Assembly: GCA_943329845.2 (NCBI GenBank)
Contig: CALQFM020000032.1
Span: forward strand, 1-43,884
From: Candidatus Kuenenia stuttgartensis
Lineage (GTDB): Bacteria > Pseudomonadota > Alphaproteobacteria > SMXS01
Direction: 5' to 3'
Length of the DNA stretch: 43,884 bases
Shown: piece after piece, positions 1,046 to 14,732 of the stretch
Position numbering within the stretch: the first letter of the stretch is position 1
How the letters are laid out: every line of letters starts with the position of its first letter
Translations under genes and position numbers: made by a program
Notes under the pieces: generated by a model
What the model saw: the letters and a program-made list of their open reading frames with translations, nothing else
The model's database searches: none
What the model was told of the DNA's origin: nothing

Positions 1046-1076
1046 AAAAAGAATGCCGGGCTCTTTCGAGCCCGGC
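1046..1076 (-). terminator. Rho-independent terminator of the AbcR-like RNA
   Basis: A perfect 9-bp stem, GCCGGGCTC (1055-1063) with GAGCCCGGC (1068-1076), has a 4-nt loop. Read on the minus strand it is followed by ATTCTTTTTG. The T-tract is only on the minus-strand side, so it ends a leftward transcript. It lies about 450 bp beyond the LysR stop codon, with no coding gene between. Confidence 0.8.
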
Positions 1077-1160
1077 AGTATAGGGAAGACTTCACGTCTT
1101 GGGGAGACGATGAATGGGAGGGCTCTAGAAACGGGGAGGAAATAGAGCCAGCTCCCACGA
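1046..1160 (-). ncRNA. abcR: AbcR-like (alpha-r15 family) trans-acting sRNA
   Basis: Seen in sequence, minus strand: about 115 nt folding into three hairpins. The first pairs 1143-1156 with 1116-1127 (12 bp, 2-nt bulge) and exposes a C/U-rich loop, TTTCCTCCCCGTTTC, able to pair with Shine-Dalgarno sequences. The second is GTCTT-free AAGAC/GTCTT (1086-1100). The third is a perfect 9-bp GC-rich terminator hairpin followed by TTCTTTTT. Known: AbcR1/AbcR2 (alpha-r15) of Rhizobiales are ~110-120-nt, three-hairpin, anti-SD sRNAs that repress many ABC-transporter mRNAs; in Sinorhizobium and Brucella copies sit beside the LysR gene lsrB/vtlR, next to trxB. The same order (TetR, RNA, LysR, trxB) is present here. 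Family assignment rests on structure and synteny, not on an alignment. The 5' end is estimated from a CATATT -10 box. Confidence 0.6.
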
Positions 1161-1167
1161 AAACCTC

Positions 1168-1217
1168 AATATGAGGAGGCTTTCGGATCACCACGCTGAA
1201 CCGTTGCTTCGTGGTGA
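1168..1217 (-). promoter_or_regulatory. Probable sRNA promoter with 8-bp inverted repeat (activator site candidate)
   Basis: On the minus strand CATATT (1173-1168) fits a -10 box placed 7-8 nt before the first sRNA hairpin. No recognisable -35 lies 15-18 bp upstream. Instead that position is covered by a perfect 8-bp inverted repeat, TCACCACG (1188-1195) and CGTGGTGA (1210-1217), separated by 14 bp. A weak -35 under an inverted repeat suits a LysR-type activator; VtlR is known to activate abcR2 in Brucella. Alternatively the repeat is a 5' hairpin of a longer transcript. Confidence 0.4.
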
Positions 1218-1529
1218 CAAGTTGGAATTTAGTTATGCGCCGCAGCGTGGTCCAGCAGGTTCGCGGCAAATCAGGCATGCATCTGACGCATATCCAGAAA
1301 ACAATCCATTTTTAATCAGTAACTTACGATCAGGTGTCCAGGCTTTCCGGATATTTTGCAGCGCAATATCGCGGATACGGCCGGTTTTCCATGGTGTTGG
1401 CAGAACCGACGTCCAGGCGCGCTGCGCTGCCCACGCATCAAAAACCGTCCGTAGGGCTGGAATGGCATGGAGGCGCCTGGCGCTCCGTCAAGAGCGCGGC
1501 ATACCGTTTTGGGCGGTGGAATCCGGCGG
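1218..1529. other. Intergenic stretch between sRNA region and LysR gene
   Basis: About 310 bp downstream of the LysR stop with no convincing gene on either strand. Short open frames here lack ribosome sites and recognisable content. No second tandem sRNA with a terminator hairpin is evident, although AbcR RNAs often occur as pairs elsewhere. Confidence 0.5.
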
Positions 1530-2417
1530 TCAGAACTTGGCGGTGCGGACCTGGTCCACCAGGAAGTCGCGGAACACCGTGATCCGAGTCACGTTGCGCA
1601 GCTCCTCCGGATAGACGAAGTACACCTTGAAGGTGGGCCCTTCCAGGTCCGGCAGCACCTGCACCAGGTTGGTGCCGGGCGTGGCGATGTAGTCGGGCAG
1701 GGCGGCGAGGCCCAGGCCGCTCTCGACCGCCTTGAGGATGCCGTAGATGTTGTTCACCGCCAGCACGGGCTCGCGCACCCGGTCGCCCGCGCCCGCGTGG
1801 ATGATCCAGTTCAGATCCTGCAGCGGCCGCGGCGCCTCGGGGCCATAGGAAATGATCGCGTGGTTGTCCAGGTCGGCCGTCGAGCTGGGCGCGCCGCGGG
1901 CGGCCACATATTCAGGCGAGGCGTAGATGTGGTAGTGCACCGTCATCAGCTGGCGCTGGATCAGGTCCGGCTGGTGCGGCGGATGAAAGCGGATCGCCGC
2001 GTCGGATTCGCGCATGGCGATATCGATCTCGGAATCAGACAGCAGCAGATTGATCCCGATGTCGGGATAGGCGAGCCTGAAATCCCTGAGATGCGGCACC
2101 AGCCAGGTCGAGCCGAAGCCGACGGTGGTGGTGACGTTGAGCCGTCCTCGCGCCGCGGTCCGGCTGTCGCGCAGGATAGCCTCGGTTCGCTCCAGCTTGA
2201 CGAACACCTCGCTGACGGTCTCGAACAGCGTCTCGCCCTGCTCGGTCAGGATCAGGCCGCGCGGATGGCGGTGGAACAGCGAAAAGCCCAGGCTTTCCTC
2301 GAGGCCGGAGATTTGCCGGCTGATCGCCGACTGGCTGAGATTCAGCTCGTCGCTGGCGTGCGTGAAGCTGCCCGCCTTCGCGACCGAGTAGAATGTACGC
2401 AGCTTGTCCCAGTCCAT
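1530..2417 (-). CDS. lsrB: LysR-family regulator, LsrB/VtlR type
   Basis: LysR-type transcriptional regulator of 295 residues, the usual length. The N-terminal winged helix-turn-helix reads MDWDKLRTFYSVAKAGSFT, then NLSQSAISRQISGLE, then LFHRHPRGLILTEQG. The WDKLRTF start, HRHPRGL wing and position next to trxB match the LsrB (Sinorhizobium)/VtlR (Brucella) group, conserved in Alphaproteobacteria, where it governs redox response, envelope functions and AbcR sRNA expression. A co-inducer domain follows (residues ~90-295). The ATG at 2417 has a strong GGGGGAAAG site. It lies 61 bp downstream of trxB on the same strand, so read-through from the trxB unit is possible. LsrB senses oxidants through cysteines in rhizobia; I see no cysteine in this protein, so redox sensing by thiols is unlikely here. 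Confidence 0.82.
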   Translation of the reverse strand: MDWDKLRTFYSVAKAGSFTHASDELNLSQSAISRQISGLEESLGFSLFHRHPRGLILTEQGETLFETVSEVFVKLERTEAILRDSRTAARGRLNVTTTVGFGSTWLVPHLRDFRLAYPDIGINLLLSDSEIDIAMRESDAAIRFHPPHQPDLIQRQLMTVHYHIYASPEYVAARGAPSSTADLDNHAIISYGPEAPRPLQDLNWIIHAGAGDRVREPVLAVNNIYGILKAVESGLGLAALPDYIATPGTNLVQVLPDLEGPTFKVYFVYPEELRNVTRITVFRDFLVDQVRTAKF

Positions 2418-2478: not shown

Positions 2479-3447
2479 TTATTCCGCCGCCTGCTTTTCG
2501 TGAACTTCGTGGGCGGCGATGAATTTCTCTGCTTCCAATGCCGCCATGCAACCCATGCCGGCGGCGGTCACGGCCTGACGATACACCTTATCGGTCACGT
2601 CGCCCGCCGCAAATACACCCGGGACCGCGGTAGACGTGCTGTCCGGGTTCTTCAGGATGTAGCCGCCGTCGTCCAGCGGCAGCTGGCCGACGAACAATTC
2701 GGTCGACGGCGTGTGGCCGATGGCGATGAAAACGCCGTGGGCTGGCACTTCGGAAACGGCGCCGGTTTTCGTGTTGTAGAGGCGCACGCCGGTCACTCCC
2801 ATGGGATCGGTACCGCCGATGATGTCCTCGACCACGCTGTCCCAGATCACCCGGATCTTGTCGTGGTTGAACAGCCGCTGCTGCAGCACCTTCTCGGCGC
2901 GCAGCTCGTCGCGGCGGTGGATCAGCGTCACCTTGGTGGCGAAGTTGGTCAGGAACAGCGCTTCCTCGACCGCGGTGTTGCCGCCACCGATCACGATCAC
3001 TTCCTTGCCGCGGTAGAAGAAACCGTCGCATGTGGCGCAGGCCGACACGCCGAAGCCCTGGAACTTCTGCTCGCCGGGCAGGCCCAGCCAGCGGGCCTGG
3101 GCGCCGGTGGCGATGATCAGCGTCTCGCCGACATACTCCGTGCCGCTGTCGCCGACGGCGACGAACGGGCGCCTCGACAGGTCGACCGACACGATGACGT
3201 CGGAAATCAGCGTGGTGCCCACATGCTCGGCCTGGGCGCGCATCTGATCCATCAGCCATGGGCCCTGGATCACGTCGGCGAAGCCCGGGTAATTTTCCAC
3301 GTCCGTGGTGATGGTCAGCTGGCCGCCGGGCTGGATGCCCTGTACCATGACCGGATTGAGCGCCGCGCGGGCGGCGTAGATCGCGGCCGTATAGCCGGCG
3401 GGTCCTGATCCGATGATCAGCACCTTGGTTTCGATGCGGTCTGCCAT
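2479..3447 (-). CDS. trxB: Thioredoxin-disulfide reductase
   Basis: Cytoplasmic flavoenzyme that reduces thioredoxin with NADPH. From the ATG at 3447 it has 322 residues, close to E. coli TrxB (321). The FAD-binding motif GSGPAG is at residues 13-18, the redox-active CATC at 137-140 (context SACATCDGFF), the NADPH-binding motif GGGNTAVEEA from ~154, and the second FAD motif GVFAAGDVTD near the C terminus. I prefer this start to an in-frame start at 3513 because GGAGAGAAGC sits just before it and homologues begin here. It lies downstream of a peroxiredoxin gene on the same strand (gap 180 bp), which makes functional sense: reduced thioredoxin regenerates 2-Cys peroxiredoxins. Confidence 0.96.
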   Translation of the reverse strand: MADRIETKVLIIGSGPAGYTAAIYAARAALNPVMVQGIQPGGQLTITTDVENYPGFADVIQGPWLMDQMRAQAEHVGTTLISDVIVSVDLSRRPFVAVGDSGTEYVGETLIIATGAQARWLGLPGEQKFQGFGVSACATCDGFFYRGKEVIVIGGGNTAVEEALFLTNFATKVTLIHRRDELRAEKVLQQRLFNHDKIRVIWDSVVEDIIGGTDPMGVTGVRLYNTKTGAVSEVPAHGVFIAIGHTPSTELFVGQLPLDDGGYILKNPDSTSTAVPGVFAAGDVTDKVYRQAVTAAGMGCMAALEAEKFIAAHEVHEKQAAE

Positions 3448-3627
3448 GCTTCTCTCCGCTGGCGGCTGCCGGTGTCCCTCAGGTAAGACCGGCGCCTTAT
3501 TTCGCAAGTGCACTCTAGAACGGTTCTGGAGTCGAGGGAATCGCAGAACACGCTTGTGAAGAAAGTATTTAAAGCGGTTTGCGGCGAAGCGGAACCGCCT
3601 CGCCGCTCATTTCCGCGCGCCGGCGCC

Positions 3628-4230
3628 TTACAGGGCTTCGGCGTGCTGGGTGAGGTAGTCCGACACGCCCTGCCTGGTCGGCGCCATTCCGGCGTCGCCC
3701 TTCTGCCACCCGGCGGGACACACCTCGCCATGCTCCTCGTGGAAGCGCAGCGCCTCGACGATCCGCACCGCCTCGTCCGCGTTCCGGCCCAGCGGCAGGT
3801 CGTTGACGATCGCCTGGCGGACGGTGCCGCGGCGGTCAATCAGGAAGGTGCCACGCAGCGCGACCGCGTCATCGATCAGCACGCCATAGCTCCGGGCGAT
3901 CTGCTTGGTGATGTCGGCGACCATGGGGAACTTCACCGGGCCCAGGCCGCCCTCGTTCACCGGCGTGTTGCGCCAGGCGTAATGGCTGTACTGGGAGTCG
4001 ACGCTCACCGACACCAGCCTGGTGTCGAGCGCCGCGAGCGCGTCGGCCCGGTTGCTGTAGGCGAGGATTTCCGAGGGGCACACGAAGGTGAAGTCCAGCG
4101 GATAGAAAAACAGGATGCCGTAGCCGCCATCGAGATAGTGCATCAGGTTGAAGTTTTCCCGGATGTCGCCGTCGGGCATCACGGCCGCGGCGGTGAAATC
4201 GGGTGCCTGGCGGCCAACGAGGCTGGTCAT
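3628..4230 (-). CDS. Typical 2-Cys peroxiredoxin (AhpC/TSA family)
   Basis: Thiol peroxidase of 200 residues that reduces hydrogen peroxide and organic hydroperoxides. The peroxidatic cysteine is Cys51 in FTFVCPSE and the resolving cysteine Cys171 in GEVCPAGW, the layout of typical 2-Cys (Prx1/AhpC) enzymes that work as dimers and decamers and are recycled by thioredoxin or AhpF. No ahpF is nearby; trxB is the next gene downstream, so the thioredoxin system is the likely reductant. The upstream 250 bp are AT-rich and shared with a divergent Lrp-family gene. No OxyR or Fur site can be asserted. Confidence 0.93.
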   Translation of the reverse strand: MTSLVGRQAPDFTAAAVMPDGDIRENFNLMHYLDGGYGILFFYPLDFTFVCPSEILAYSNRADALAALDTRLVSVSVDSQYSHYAWRNTPVNEGGLGPVKFPMVADITKQIARSYGVLIDDAVALRGTFLIDRRGTVRQAIVNDLPLGRNADEAVRIVEALRFHEEHGEVCPAGWQKGDAGMAPTRQGVSDYLTQHAEAL

Positions 4231-4968: not shown

Positions 4969-5442
4969 TCAGATAAACTTCACCTTGAGGATTTCATACG
5001 CACGCTGTCCGCCGGGCGCGGCGAAATCGACTTCGTCGCCTTCCGACTTGCCGATCAGGGCGCGGGCAAGCGGCGAGTTGATGGACAGCAGGCCCGACTT
5101 GATGTCGGCCTCGACCTCGCCGACGATCTGATAGGTGCGCTCCTCGTCGGTTTCGATGTCGACGACGGTCACGGTCGCGCCGAACTTCACGGTCTTGCCC
5201 GACAGCTTGGAGACGTCGATGACCTCGGCGCGCGAGATCATGTCCTCGAGCTCGAGGATCTGGCCCTCGATGAAGGCCTGGCGCTCCTTGGCGGCGTGGT
5301 ACTCGGCGTTCTCCGACAGGTCGCCATGCTCGCGCGCCTCGGAGATCGCACGGATCACCGCCGGACGTTCGTCGAGCTTGTAGCGGCGCAGATCGCCCTC
5401 GATGCGATCGAGGCCCTTCGCCGTCATCGGAATCTTTTCCAT
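4969..5442 (-). CDS. greA: Transcription elongation factor GreA
   Basis: 157 residues, the standard length. It rescues backtracked RNA polymerase by stimulating transcript cleavage through the secondary channel. The N-terminal antiparallel coiled coil carries the tip motif [17 protein letters not shown], with the acidic residues that hold catalytic Mg in the polymerase. The C-terminal FKBP-like domain ends [11 protein letters not shown] then YEILKV. The ATG is at 5442, preceded by AGGAACGGCG. It lies downstream of carB on the same strand, a neighbourhood common in Alphaproteobacteria, but a hairpin between the two suggests it is at least partly transcribed separately. Confidence 0.97.
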
Positions 5443-5483
5443 CGCCGTTCCTTCTTATTCTTCGTGCCGCAAAGCAATCACGA

Positions 5484-5505
5484 CCGGGCGGCGTATTCCG
5501 CCCGG
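5484..5505 (-). terminator. GC-rich hairpin between carB and greA
   Basis: A perfect 8-bp stem, CCGGGCGG (5484-5491) with CCGCCCGG (5498-5505), has a 6-nt loop and sits 16 bp after the carB stop codon. No T-run follows on the minus strand, so termination would be weak or factor-assisted; partial read-through into greA is plausible. Confidence 0.45.
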
Positions 5506-5521
5506 CGTGACGCCTTCAGGA

Positions 5522-8756
<3,235 letters not shown>

Positions 8757-8764
<8 letters not shown>

Positions 8765-9932
8765 GCTTGGTCACCATGTTCATGAACTGGGCGAACAGGT
8801 AGTGGCTGTCCTGGGGGCCGGGTGAGGCTTCCGGATGGTGCTGCACCGAGAAAACAGGCTTGCCCTTGAAGGCGAGGCCGCAGACGGTGCCGTCGAACAG
8901 CGACACGTGGGTCACCTCGACGCTGTCGGGCAGGCTGTCCGCGTCCACGGTGAAGCCGTGGTTCATGGAGGTGATCTCGACCTTGCCGGTGCGCAGATCC
9001 TTCACCGGATGGTTCGCCCCGCGGTGGCCCTGGTGCATCTTCAGCGTCTTGCCGCCGGCGGCCAGCGCCAGCATCTGGTGGCCGAGGCAGATGCCGAAGA
9101 TCGGCAGGCCGCTGCCGATCAGATCGCGGATCACCGGCACCGCGTATTCGCCGGTCGCTGCCGGATCGCCCGGGCCGTTCGACAGGAACACGCCGTCCGG
9201 CTTGTGGGCCATGATCTCCTGGATCGTCGCGGTCGCCGGCACCACGGTCACCCGCGCGCCCTCGGTGGCCAGCGACCGGGCGATGTTGTTCTTCAGGCCG
9301 TAGTCTACCGCGACGATGTGCGCGATGGGATTGTCCTGCCGGCCATAGCCGTTCTCCAGCGACCAGCGGGTCTGGTTCCAGCCATAGGTCTGGGTGCAGC
9401 TCACGTCCCTGGCCAGATCCATGCCCTCGAGGCCGGGCCACGCCTTCGCCTGCGCGTAGAGCGCGGGGATGTCGAAATTGCCGTCGGGCGCGTGGCAGAT
9501 CACGCCGTTGGGCGGGCCGCCCAAGCGGATGCGGCGGGTCAGCCGCCTCGTGTCGACACCGGTGATGGCGATCAGGTTGTGGCTCGCCAGCCAGTCGTTC
9601 AGGTGGCTGACGGCGCGGAAGTTGGACGGCTCGGTGATCCGCTCGCGCAGCACCAGCCCGCGCGCGGCGGCGTTCTTCGCCTCGACGTCGTCGAAGTTGG
9701 CGCCGACATTGCCGATATGCGGGAAGGTGAAGGTGATGATCTGGGCTGCATAGGACGGATCGGTCAGGATTTCCTGGTAGCCGGTCATCGCCGTATTGAA
9801 GCAGACTTCGCCCACGGCGCTGCCGGACGCCCCTGCGCCATAACCCCAGTAGACGGTGCCATCGTGGAGGACCAGAGCGCCCGTGATCCCGCGATGGGGC
9901 GGCGCGTCCGGTAAGGTGACGTTTTCGGGCAT
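8757..9932 (-). CDS. carA: Carbamoyl-phosphate synthase, small (glutaminase) subunit
   Basis: 391 residues; the glutamine amidotransferase subunit that hydrolyses glutamine and channels ammonia to CarB. The N-terminal CPSase domain ([26 protein letters not shown]) is followed by a class I amidotransferase domain with nucleophile Cys282 in FGICLGHQ and the His366/Glu368 pair in [10 protein letters not shown]. The ATG at 9932 is preceded by GGAGACCTGA. It is the first gene of the carAB operon and is divergent from yqeY. The 250-bp upstream region is AT-rich (AAAATATAAGCATTTTC near 10038) and likely holds the promoter; no arginine or pyrimidine leader structure is obvious. Confidence 0.98.

Positions 9933-12737: not shown

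Positions 12738-14732
<1,995 letters not shown>

Follow-up and report, generated by a model that had tools for sequence, protein, structure and literature searches.

A predicted AbcR-like small RNA downstream of trxB-lsrB that appears to belong to a widespread alphaproteobacterial RNA family distinct from alpha-r15

Introduction

In the AbcR system, the LysR-family regulator LsrB/VtlR activates abcR1, and CUCCC-type seeds in the AbcR RNAs repress transporter mRNAs at the Shine-Dalgarno (SD) region (PMC8844928, PMC7486931, PMC5461406). The VtlR/LsrB box has the consensus GCAT-N3-TG-N3-T (PMC7486931); upstream of Sinorhizobium meliloti abcR1 the box is located at −61 to −49 and is followed by CTTGAC-N17-CTATAT (PMC8844928). 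Two AbcR sequence motifs have been defined: M1 (CUCCCA), located in loop 1, and M2 (GUUCCC), located in the linker (PMC5461406). Work on AbcR and LsrB in rhizobia and Brucella has treated them as a circuit for host interaction. LsrB of Agrobacterium tumefaciens contains the redox-sensing cysteines C144 and C273, a cysteine switch is also reported for S. meliloti, and a 2025 paper, using a few-species tree, describes LsrB as unique to Rhizobiales (PMC11975290).

Here, we analyse a window of 43,884 nucleotides (contig CALQFM020000032.1 of assembly GCA_943329845.2, labelled Candidatus Kuenenia stuttgartensis and assigned by GTDB lineage to the Alphaproteobacteria), in which a preliminary description, made from the sequence alone, had proposed an AbcR-like small RNA (sRNA) beside an LsrB/VtlR gene. 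That interpretation, taken as a whole, is partly supported: the slot, the LsrB box, and the anti-SD loop are AbcR-like, but membership in alpha-r15/AbcR, the single copy, and the length of 110–120 nt are not supported.

Results

A structured RNA gene with an intrinsic terminator

The window contains a conserved structured RNA gene that has an intrinsic terminator and lies downstream of trxB-lsrB, on the same strand. Its parts are as follows:

1046..1219, minus strand: sRNA gene, predicted transcript of ~174 nt, with a predicted start at ~1219 and a 3′ end in the U-tract at ~1046
1188..1217, minus strand: SL1, 5′ hairpin present in the window's genus; relatives show paired changes in an alignment of both paralogues
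1158..1185, minus strand: SL2, hairpin around UCCUCAUAUUGA, which is invariant in 16 family sequences
1115..1157, minus strand: SL3, anti-SD hairpin with loop UUUCCUCCCCGUUUC at 1142-1128 (fold and covariation)
1091..1114, minus strand: SL4, hairpin with a CUCCCCA loop, the counterpart of the class-wide ACGUCUCCCAGACGU hairpin (R2 alignment, see below)
1078..1090, minus strand: single-stranded pyrimidine linker GUCUUCCCUAUAC, the counterpart of the class-wide GCCUCCCUGUU
1046..1077, minus strand: intrinsic terminator, with a 10-bp stem at 1077-1054 and the U-tract UUCUUUUU at 1053-1046

The minus strand from 1219 to 1046 thus carries five hairpins: SL1, SL2, SL3, SL4, and the terminator. The gene call is based on retention of the element in nine related genomes and in a second paralogue, and on matches to two covariance models, R1 and R2. 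The minimum free energy is −75.4, as compared to −44.4 (sd 3.8) in dinucleotide shuffles (z −8.2), and the fold without the terminator still has a z of −6.1. The opposite strand is nearly as stable in folding, and the strand was therefore assigned from the terminator, the promoter, and conservation and gene company. In an alignment fitted to the structure, and hence leaning towards it, both partners change in 38 of 41 pairs, with a covariation of 0.507, as compared to 0.118 in shuffled and at most 0.109 in slid alignments; SL2 corresponds to helix 1 of this alignment, with 91.8% of cells paired. The SL3 loop is close to that of Rhizobium leguminosarum AbcR1, UUUUCCUCCCAGUUCC. At gathering thresholds, Rfam models matched a tRNA alone in the whole window.

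The leftward structured RNA of the preliminary description is therefore present, as are its hairpin with a C/U-rich loop complementary to SD sequences (SL3), its small second hairpin (SL4), and its terminator with a T-tract, although the terminator stem comprises 10 bp rather than 9 bp. The two 5′ hairpins, at 1217-1188 and 1185-1158, had been missed, and the transcript is probably ~174 nt rather than ~110–120 nt long.

A second copy in the same genome

Sixty relatives were searched at the DNA level. The element is present in the window's genome and in all nine further genomes from its genus (six) or family (three). The 'a' copies are all located downstream of trxB-lsrB, on the same strand. 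A second copy, having 84% identity to the window copy, is located on another contig of the window's genome (C30:14430-14597; 5433-5598 of locus L017), between two genes that, from their translations, are of VOC/glyoxalase type, and carries its own GCATACC box at −61. The earlier suggestion of a single copy was thus wrong. Both copies are present in four of the six other same-genus genomes, and the two genomes with one copy are the least complete.

The paralogues and relatives bear on two further readings of the element. It could act in cis on the TetR gene (276-1010), the frame of which starts 36 bp past the terminator, as its leader or attenuator, or it could be a small ORF, since a 102-codon frame (970-1278) crosses it. 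We reject a coding frame because the paralogues carry stops and single-base indels, and we reject a TetR leader because the RNA is present in three relatives (G007-G009) in which the TetR gene is not adjacent; the second copy also has no TetR gene beside it. The probability that we assign to these readings is practically negligible.

The adjacent regulator is an LsrB orthologue that contains no cysteine

Upstream of the RNA are two genes:

1530..2417, minus strand: lsrB/vtlR orthologue, LysR family, 295 aa (Pfam HTH_1 and LysR_substrate)
2479..3450, minus strand: trxB, thioredoxin reductase (TIGR01292 above cut-off)

The LysR-family protein has 49% identity to S. meliloti LsrB and is its reciprocal best match: S. 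meliloti LsrB, searched against the window's genome, scores 310 bits with this protein and 108 bits with the next LysR protein. Together with the trxB neighbour, this establishes the gene as the LsrB/VtlR type that had been proposed, but the rhizobial order that had been cited, lsrB-abcR-trxB, is actually trxB-lsrB-abcR1-abcR2 (PMC7486931). The window's genome also encodes hfq. A 1-Cys peroxiredoxin gene (3628-4230) stands behind trxB in the window. Some relatives share this variable redox neighbour, whereas others (L020, L028, L029, L031) lack it. Record CP090106.1 (L091, 3.7 Mb), labelled S. meliloti pSymB, carries trxB-lsrB-abcR; it is far oversize and is probably a mislabelled chromosome.

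The window LsrB contains no cysteine and hence neither C144 nor C273, and 31 of 56 orthologues likewise contain none. The redox cysteines therefore define the rhizobial proteins and not the LsrB orthologue group as a whole. The present data also contradict the view that LsrB is unique to Rhizobiales (PMC11975290).

An LsrB/VtlR box at AbcR1-like spacing

The region upstream of the predicted start contains three elements:

1268..1280, minus strand: LsrB/VtlR box GCATGCCTGATTT (GCAT-N3-TG-N3-T), centred near −55 and fitting the published consensus exactly (PMC7486931, PMC8844928)
1250..1255, minus strand: −35-like CTGGAC, 5/6 to CTTGAC, N17 to the −10 element, TGGA-like bases partly kept in relatives
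1227..1232, minus strand: −10-like CTAAAT, 5/6 to CTATAT, TA of the −10 element kept in relatives

In particular, GCATGCCTGATTT (1280-1268) is followed by 12 nt, CTGGAC, exactly 17 nt, and CTAAAT. Counting from the box as −61 gives a predicted start at 1219, two bases ahead of SL1; this start is predicted from the box/−10 spacing and from the conserved start of SL1, and relative to it the box occupies −61 to −49, as it does in S. meliloti abcR1. In four rhizobial records (S. meliloti, Shinella, and Rhizobium AbcR1), the box is exactly at −61 of the ar15 match of the first copy, and in the window's family the same box spacing is present upstream of both paralogues. Two copies deviate from GCATRNC: one same-genus copy has GCACGCC, and one has ACATGCC. 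A scan with a generic sigma-70 consensus found no promoter; the alphaproteobacterial −35 and −10 hexamers were picked by eye and checked by spacing. A perfect candidate LsrB box at AbcR1-like spacing, kept before both paralogues, is the best evidence for the term 'AbcR-like'.

An RNA cut from the 3′ UTR of the lsrB mRNA, having no promoter of its own, would likewise lie downstream of lsrB on the same strand, as the RNA does in most genomes, and has a precedent in SorX, which is cut from ompR mRNA (PMC6238624). The box, the −35 and −10 elements, and their spacing are, however, conserved, and are conserved also before paralogues that are not behind lsrB. Because the second copies are not behind lsrB, we read the upstream block as the putative promoter of the RNA itself and consider a 3′-UTR origin unlikely.

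An lsrB-linked RNA family across Alphaproteobacteria

Covariance model R1 was trained on 13 sequences, all from the family of the window, including paralogues not linked to lsrB. Since R1 was not trained on lsrB linkage, the linkage of its matches is an independent test. At E ≤ 0.1, 120 of 385 alphaproteobacterial genomes gave an R1 match. Among 133 out-of-family matches, 69 are located 87–431 bp downstream of lsrB, on the same strand; 14 further matches are located 0.9–12 kb downstream, on the same strand; ~0.01 would be expected by chance (distances are from an LsrB search of the same genomes; for four genomes, the place of lsrB is from another search). GCATRNC is found in 51 of the 69 intergenic stretches between lsrB and the RNA; shuffles gave 9.8 (sd 2.7, maximum 19). 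Its occurrences peak between −58 and −69 relative to the model start. Class-wide linkage and the perfect LsrB box at the AbcR1 position both strengthen the earlier proposal of a conserved regulator–sRNA pair.

The matched RNAs share a core, ACGUCUCCCAGACGUGAAGCCUCCCUGUU, followed by a terminator, that is near-invariant over many families, and have variable hairpins before the core; the core version of the window's family is CAUCGUCUCCCCAAGACGUGAAGUCUUCCCUAUAC. Covariance model R2 was built from the class-wide core and matched 183 of 385 alphaproteobacterial genomes. The window RNA scores 59.7 bits with R2, as compared to up to 91 bits for the highest match and 35 bits for the best non-alphaproteobacterial match in a 150-genome phylum sample; it contains CGUCUCCC-AGACGUGAAG, CUCCCUGUU, and the terminator that mark the lsrB-linked CUCCC-core family. 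Because the window's family contributed 3 of the 36 training rows of R2, R1 rather than R2 provides the independent link of the window to the wider family. Similarly, 83 of the 118 listed R2 matches in genomes with a known place of lsrB are 148–494 bp downstream of lsrB, a count that is not independent since the training rows were picked from lsrB-linked matches. In 34 lsrB loci, including the window, R2 gave 21 matches, all on the lsrB strand and 20 of them downstream. The remaining match, between trxB and lsrB and thus upstream of lsrB, at L036 4863-4932, scores 12.4 bits and is probably due to chance. The lsrB loci of Azospirillum and Methylobacterium gave no R2 match. In some genomes the RNA is located away from lsrB, and in others 0.6–12 kb downstream.

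Two other arrangements were observed. Tandem or near-tandem pairs of R2-type RNAs (G310:C1:4057345-4059675, G253:C4:38420-38856, and G286:C90:43579-46175) recall tandem abcR1-abcR2, and the 1.1-Mb plasmid pTM3 of Tistrella mobilis (L182) carries lsrB (8001-8873) and an R2-type RNA (13745-13812) on the same strand, ~5 kb apart.

No Rfam family covers the lsrB-linked RNAs, for which, except in Rhodobacterales, the best matches are sub-threshold matches to SorX, suhB, and SorY. In the open-access literature, the core string returned unrelated human-cell work only and no description of a class-wide lsrB sRNA was found; an earlier account in a subscription journal is possible. By these comparisons, the window RNA is a putative member of an lsrB-linked family across Alphaproteobacteria that is distinct from ar15/AbcR and has no Rfam entry.

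Relation to AbcR

The slot (downstream of lsrB/vtlR, on the same strand, with trxB beyond), the LsrB box at −61, and the near-identical anti-SD loop of one hairpin would all suit a true but diverged member of alpha-r15/AbcR (RF02345). The covariance-model check that the preliminary description had called for came out negative: in 641 bases of the window, the ar15 model (gathering score 40 bits) found nothing at E values of up to 10, and in the whole genome, all 102 candidates scored, it again found no match, yet the AbcR1 and AbcR2 loci of Sinorhizobium, Shinella, and Rhizobium score 97–127 bits with it. The model is also above its cut-off in six of seven genomes of family f174, taken as Rhizobiaceae. 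Conversely, R1 and R2 gave nothing beyond background on AbcR loci. In place of the three hairpins, ~110–120 nt, and M1 and M2 motifs of AbcR, the window RNA has five hairpins, ~174 nt, other linkers, and CUCCCC twice, and has no GUUCCC. Because neither model matches across and because length, hairpin number, and second seed differ, we do not file the RNA under AbcR, and consider true membership very unlikely.

Relation to SorX, SorY, and alpha-R8

The window RNA matches SorX weakly (18.8 bits), as it does suhB (16.9 bits); with SorX, class-wide relatives score up to 42.6 bits, and lsrB-linked RNAs of Rhodobacterales pass the gathering score. These matches would suit membership in SorX or in alpha-R8/mmgR (suhB). 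Specifically, the lsrB-linked RNAs of Paracoccus, Pseudorhodobacter, and Octadecabacter score 49–54 bits with SorX and 44–58 bits with SorY. Four Rhodobacterales RNAs (L098 3539-3626, L179 3521-3596, L180 3528-3616, and L181 3537-3625) are above the SorX gathering score and match SorY over its full length. The window RNA itself, however, is far below the gathering scores of SorX (46.6 bits, RF02784) and suhB (41 bits, RF00519), and a separate suhB gene of the genome lies at C1:88657-88735 (63.6 bits). The exact alpha-R8 10-mer UUUCCUCCCU was not found in the window RNA, alpha-R8 is usually linked to the FGase gene (PMC12559287), and SorX is linked to ompR. Membership in either family is thus very unlikely indeed.

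Discussion

We propose that lsrB and the downstream, same-strand, independently transcribed, non-coding RNA of ~174 nt form a regulator–sRNA pair. LsrB would bind the GCAT-type box at about −61 and activate the sRNA promoter; the RNA, probably with Hfq, would expose three pyrimidine seeds, UUUCCUCCCCGUUUC, CUCCCCA, and CUUCCCU; and, by pairing with SD regions, the seeds would repress many mRNAs in trans in the manner of AbcR. In Rhizobiaceae, the corresponding position, behind a box of this kind, is taken by AbcR. By this analogy, an AbcR-like mode of action is the likeliest mechanism, and we consider it highly probable that the pair as a whole comprises an AbcR-like anti-SD RNA of a separate lsrB-linked family, activated by LsrB.

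The trxB-lsrB-sRNA order and the LsrB-type box are present in scores of alphaproteobacterial families, and the circuit therefore looks older than host association. LsrB together with a directly activated anti-SD sRNA may form a previously undescribed circuit that is ancestral in Alphaproteobacteria and occurs in many of their orders; the rhizobial LsrB-AbcR pair would then have arisen late, through replacement or remodelling of the RNA and acquisition of redox cysteines by the regulator, and the SorX/SorY-like RNAs beside lsrB in Rhodobacterales would be another branch. On this evolutionary reading we are evenly divided. Any tractable alphaproteobacterium outside the rhizobia would serve for testing the circuit, and R2, with matches in 183 of the 385 sampled genomes, supplies the missing Rfam family. 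Since the window protein and 31 of 56 orthologues contain no cysteine, cysteine-based redox sensing cannot be the general input of LsrB.

Among known RNAs, SorX (RF02784) and SorY (RF02651) of Rhodobacter resemble the window RNA in having a CCUCCCUGUU-N2-ACUU pyrimidine seed ahead of a terminator, but SorX is processed from the ompR (RSP_0847) mRNA, and the window RNA scores 18.8 bits with SorX and has extra hairpins. The alpha-R8/mmgR/SisA-D RNAs (RF00519) resemble it in having a pyrimidine anti-SD seed before the terminator and in occurring in many Alphaproteobacteria, and SisA represses mRNAs through such a seed (PMC12559287); alpha-R8 differs in having its own genomic link, the FGase gene, and its own 10-mer. 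AbcR1 and AbcR2 share with the window RNA the position downstream of trxB-lsrB on the same strand, an LsrB box with its 5′ end at −61, the anti-SD hairpin loop UUUCCUCCC-GUU-C, an intrinsic terminator, and paralogous copies. They differ from it in length (~112 nt, as compared to ~174 nt), in lacking the two extra 5′ hairpins, in their linkers, in having as second seed the GUUCCC linker instead of a CUCCCCA hairpin loop, and in the absence of a covariance-model match in either direction. In addition, abcR1 and abcR2 are in tandem, whereas the second copy of the window RNA is elsewhere in the genome and keeps an LsrB-type box, unlike S. meliloti abcR2, which is without such a box.
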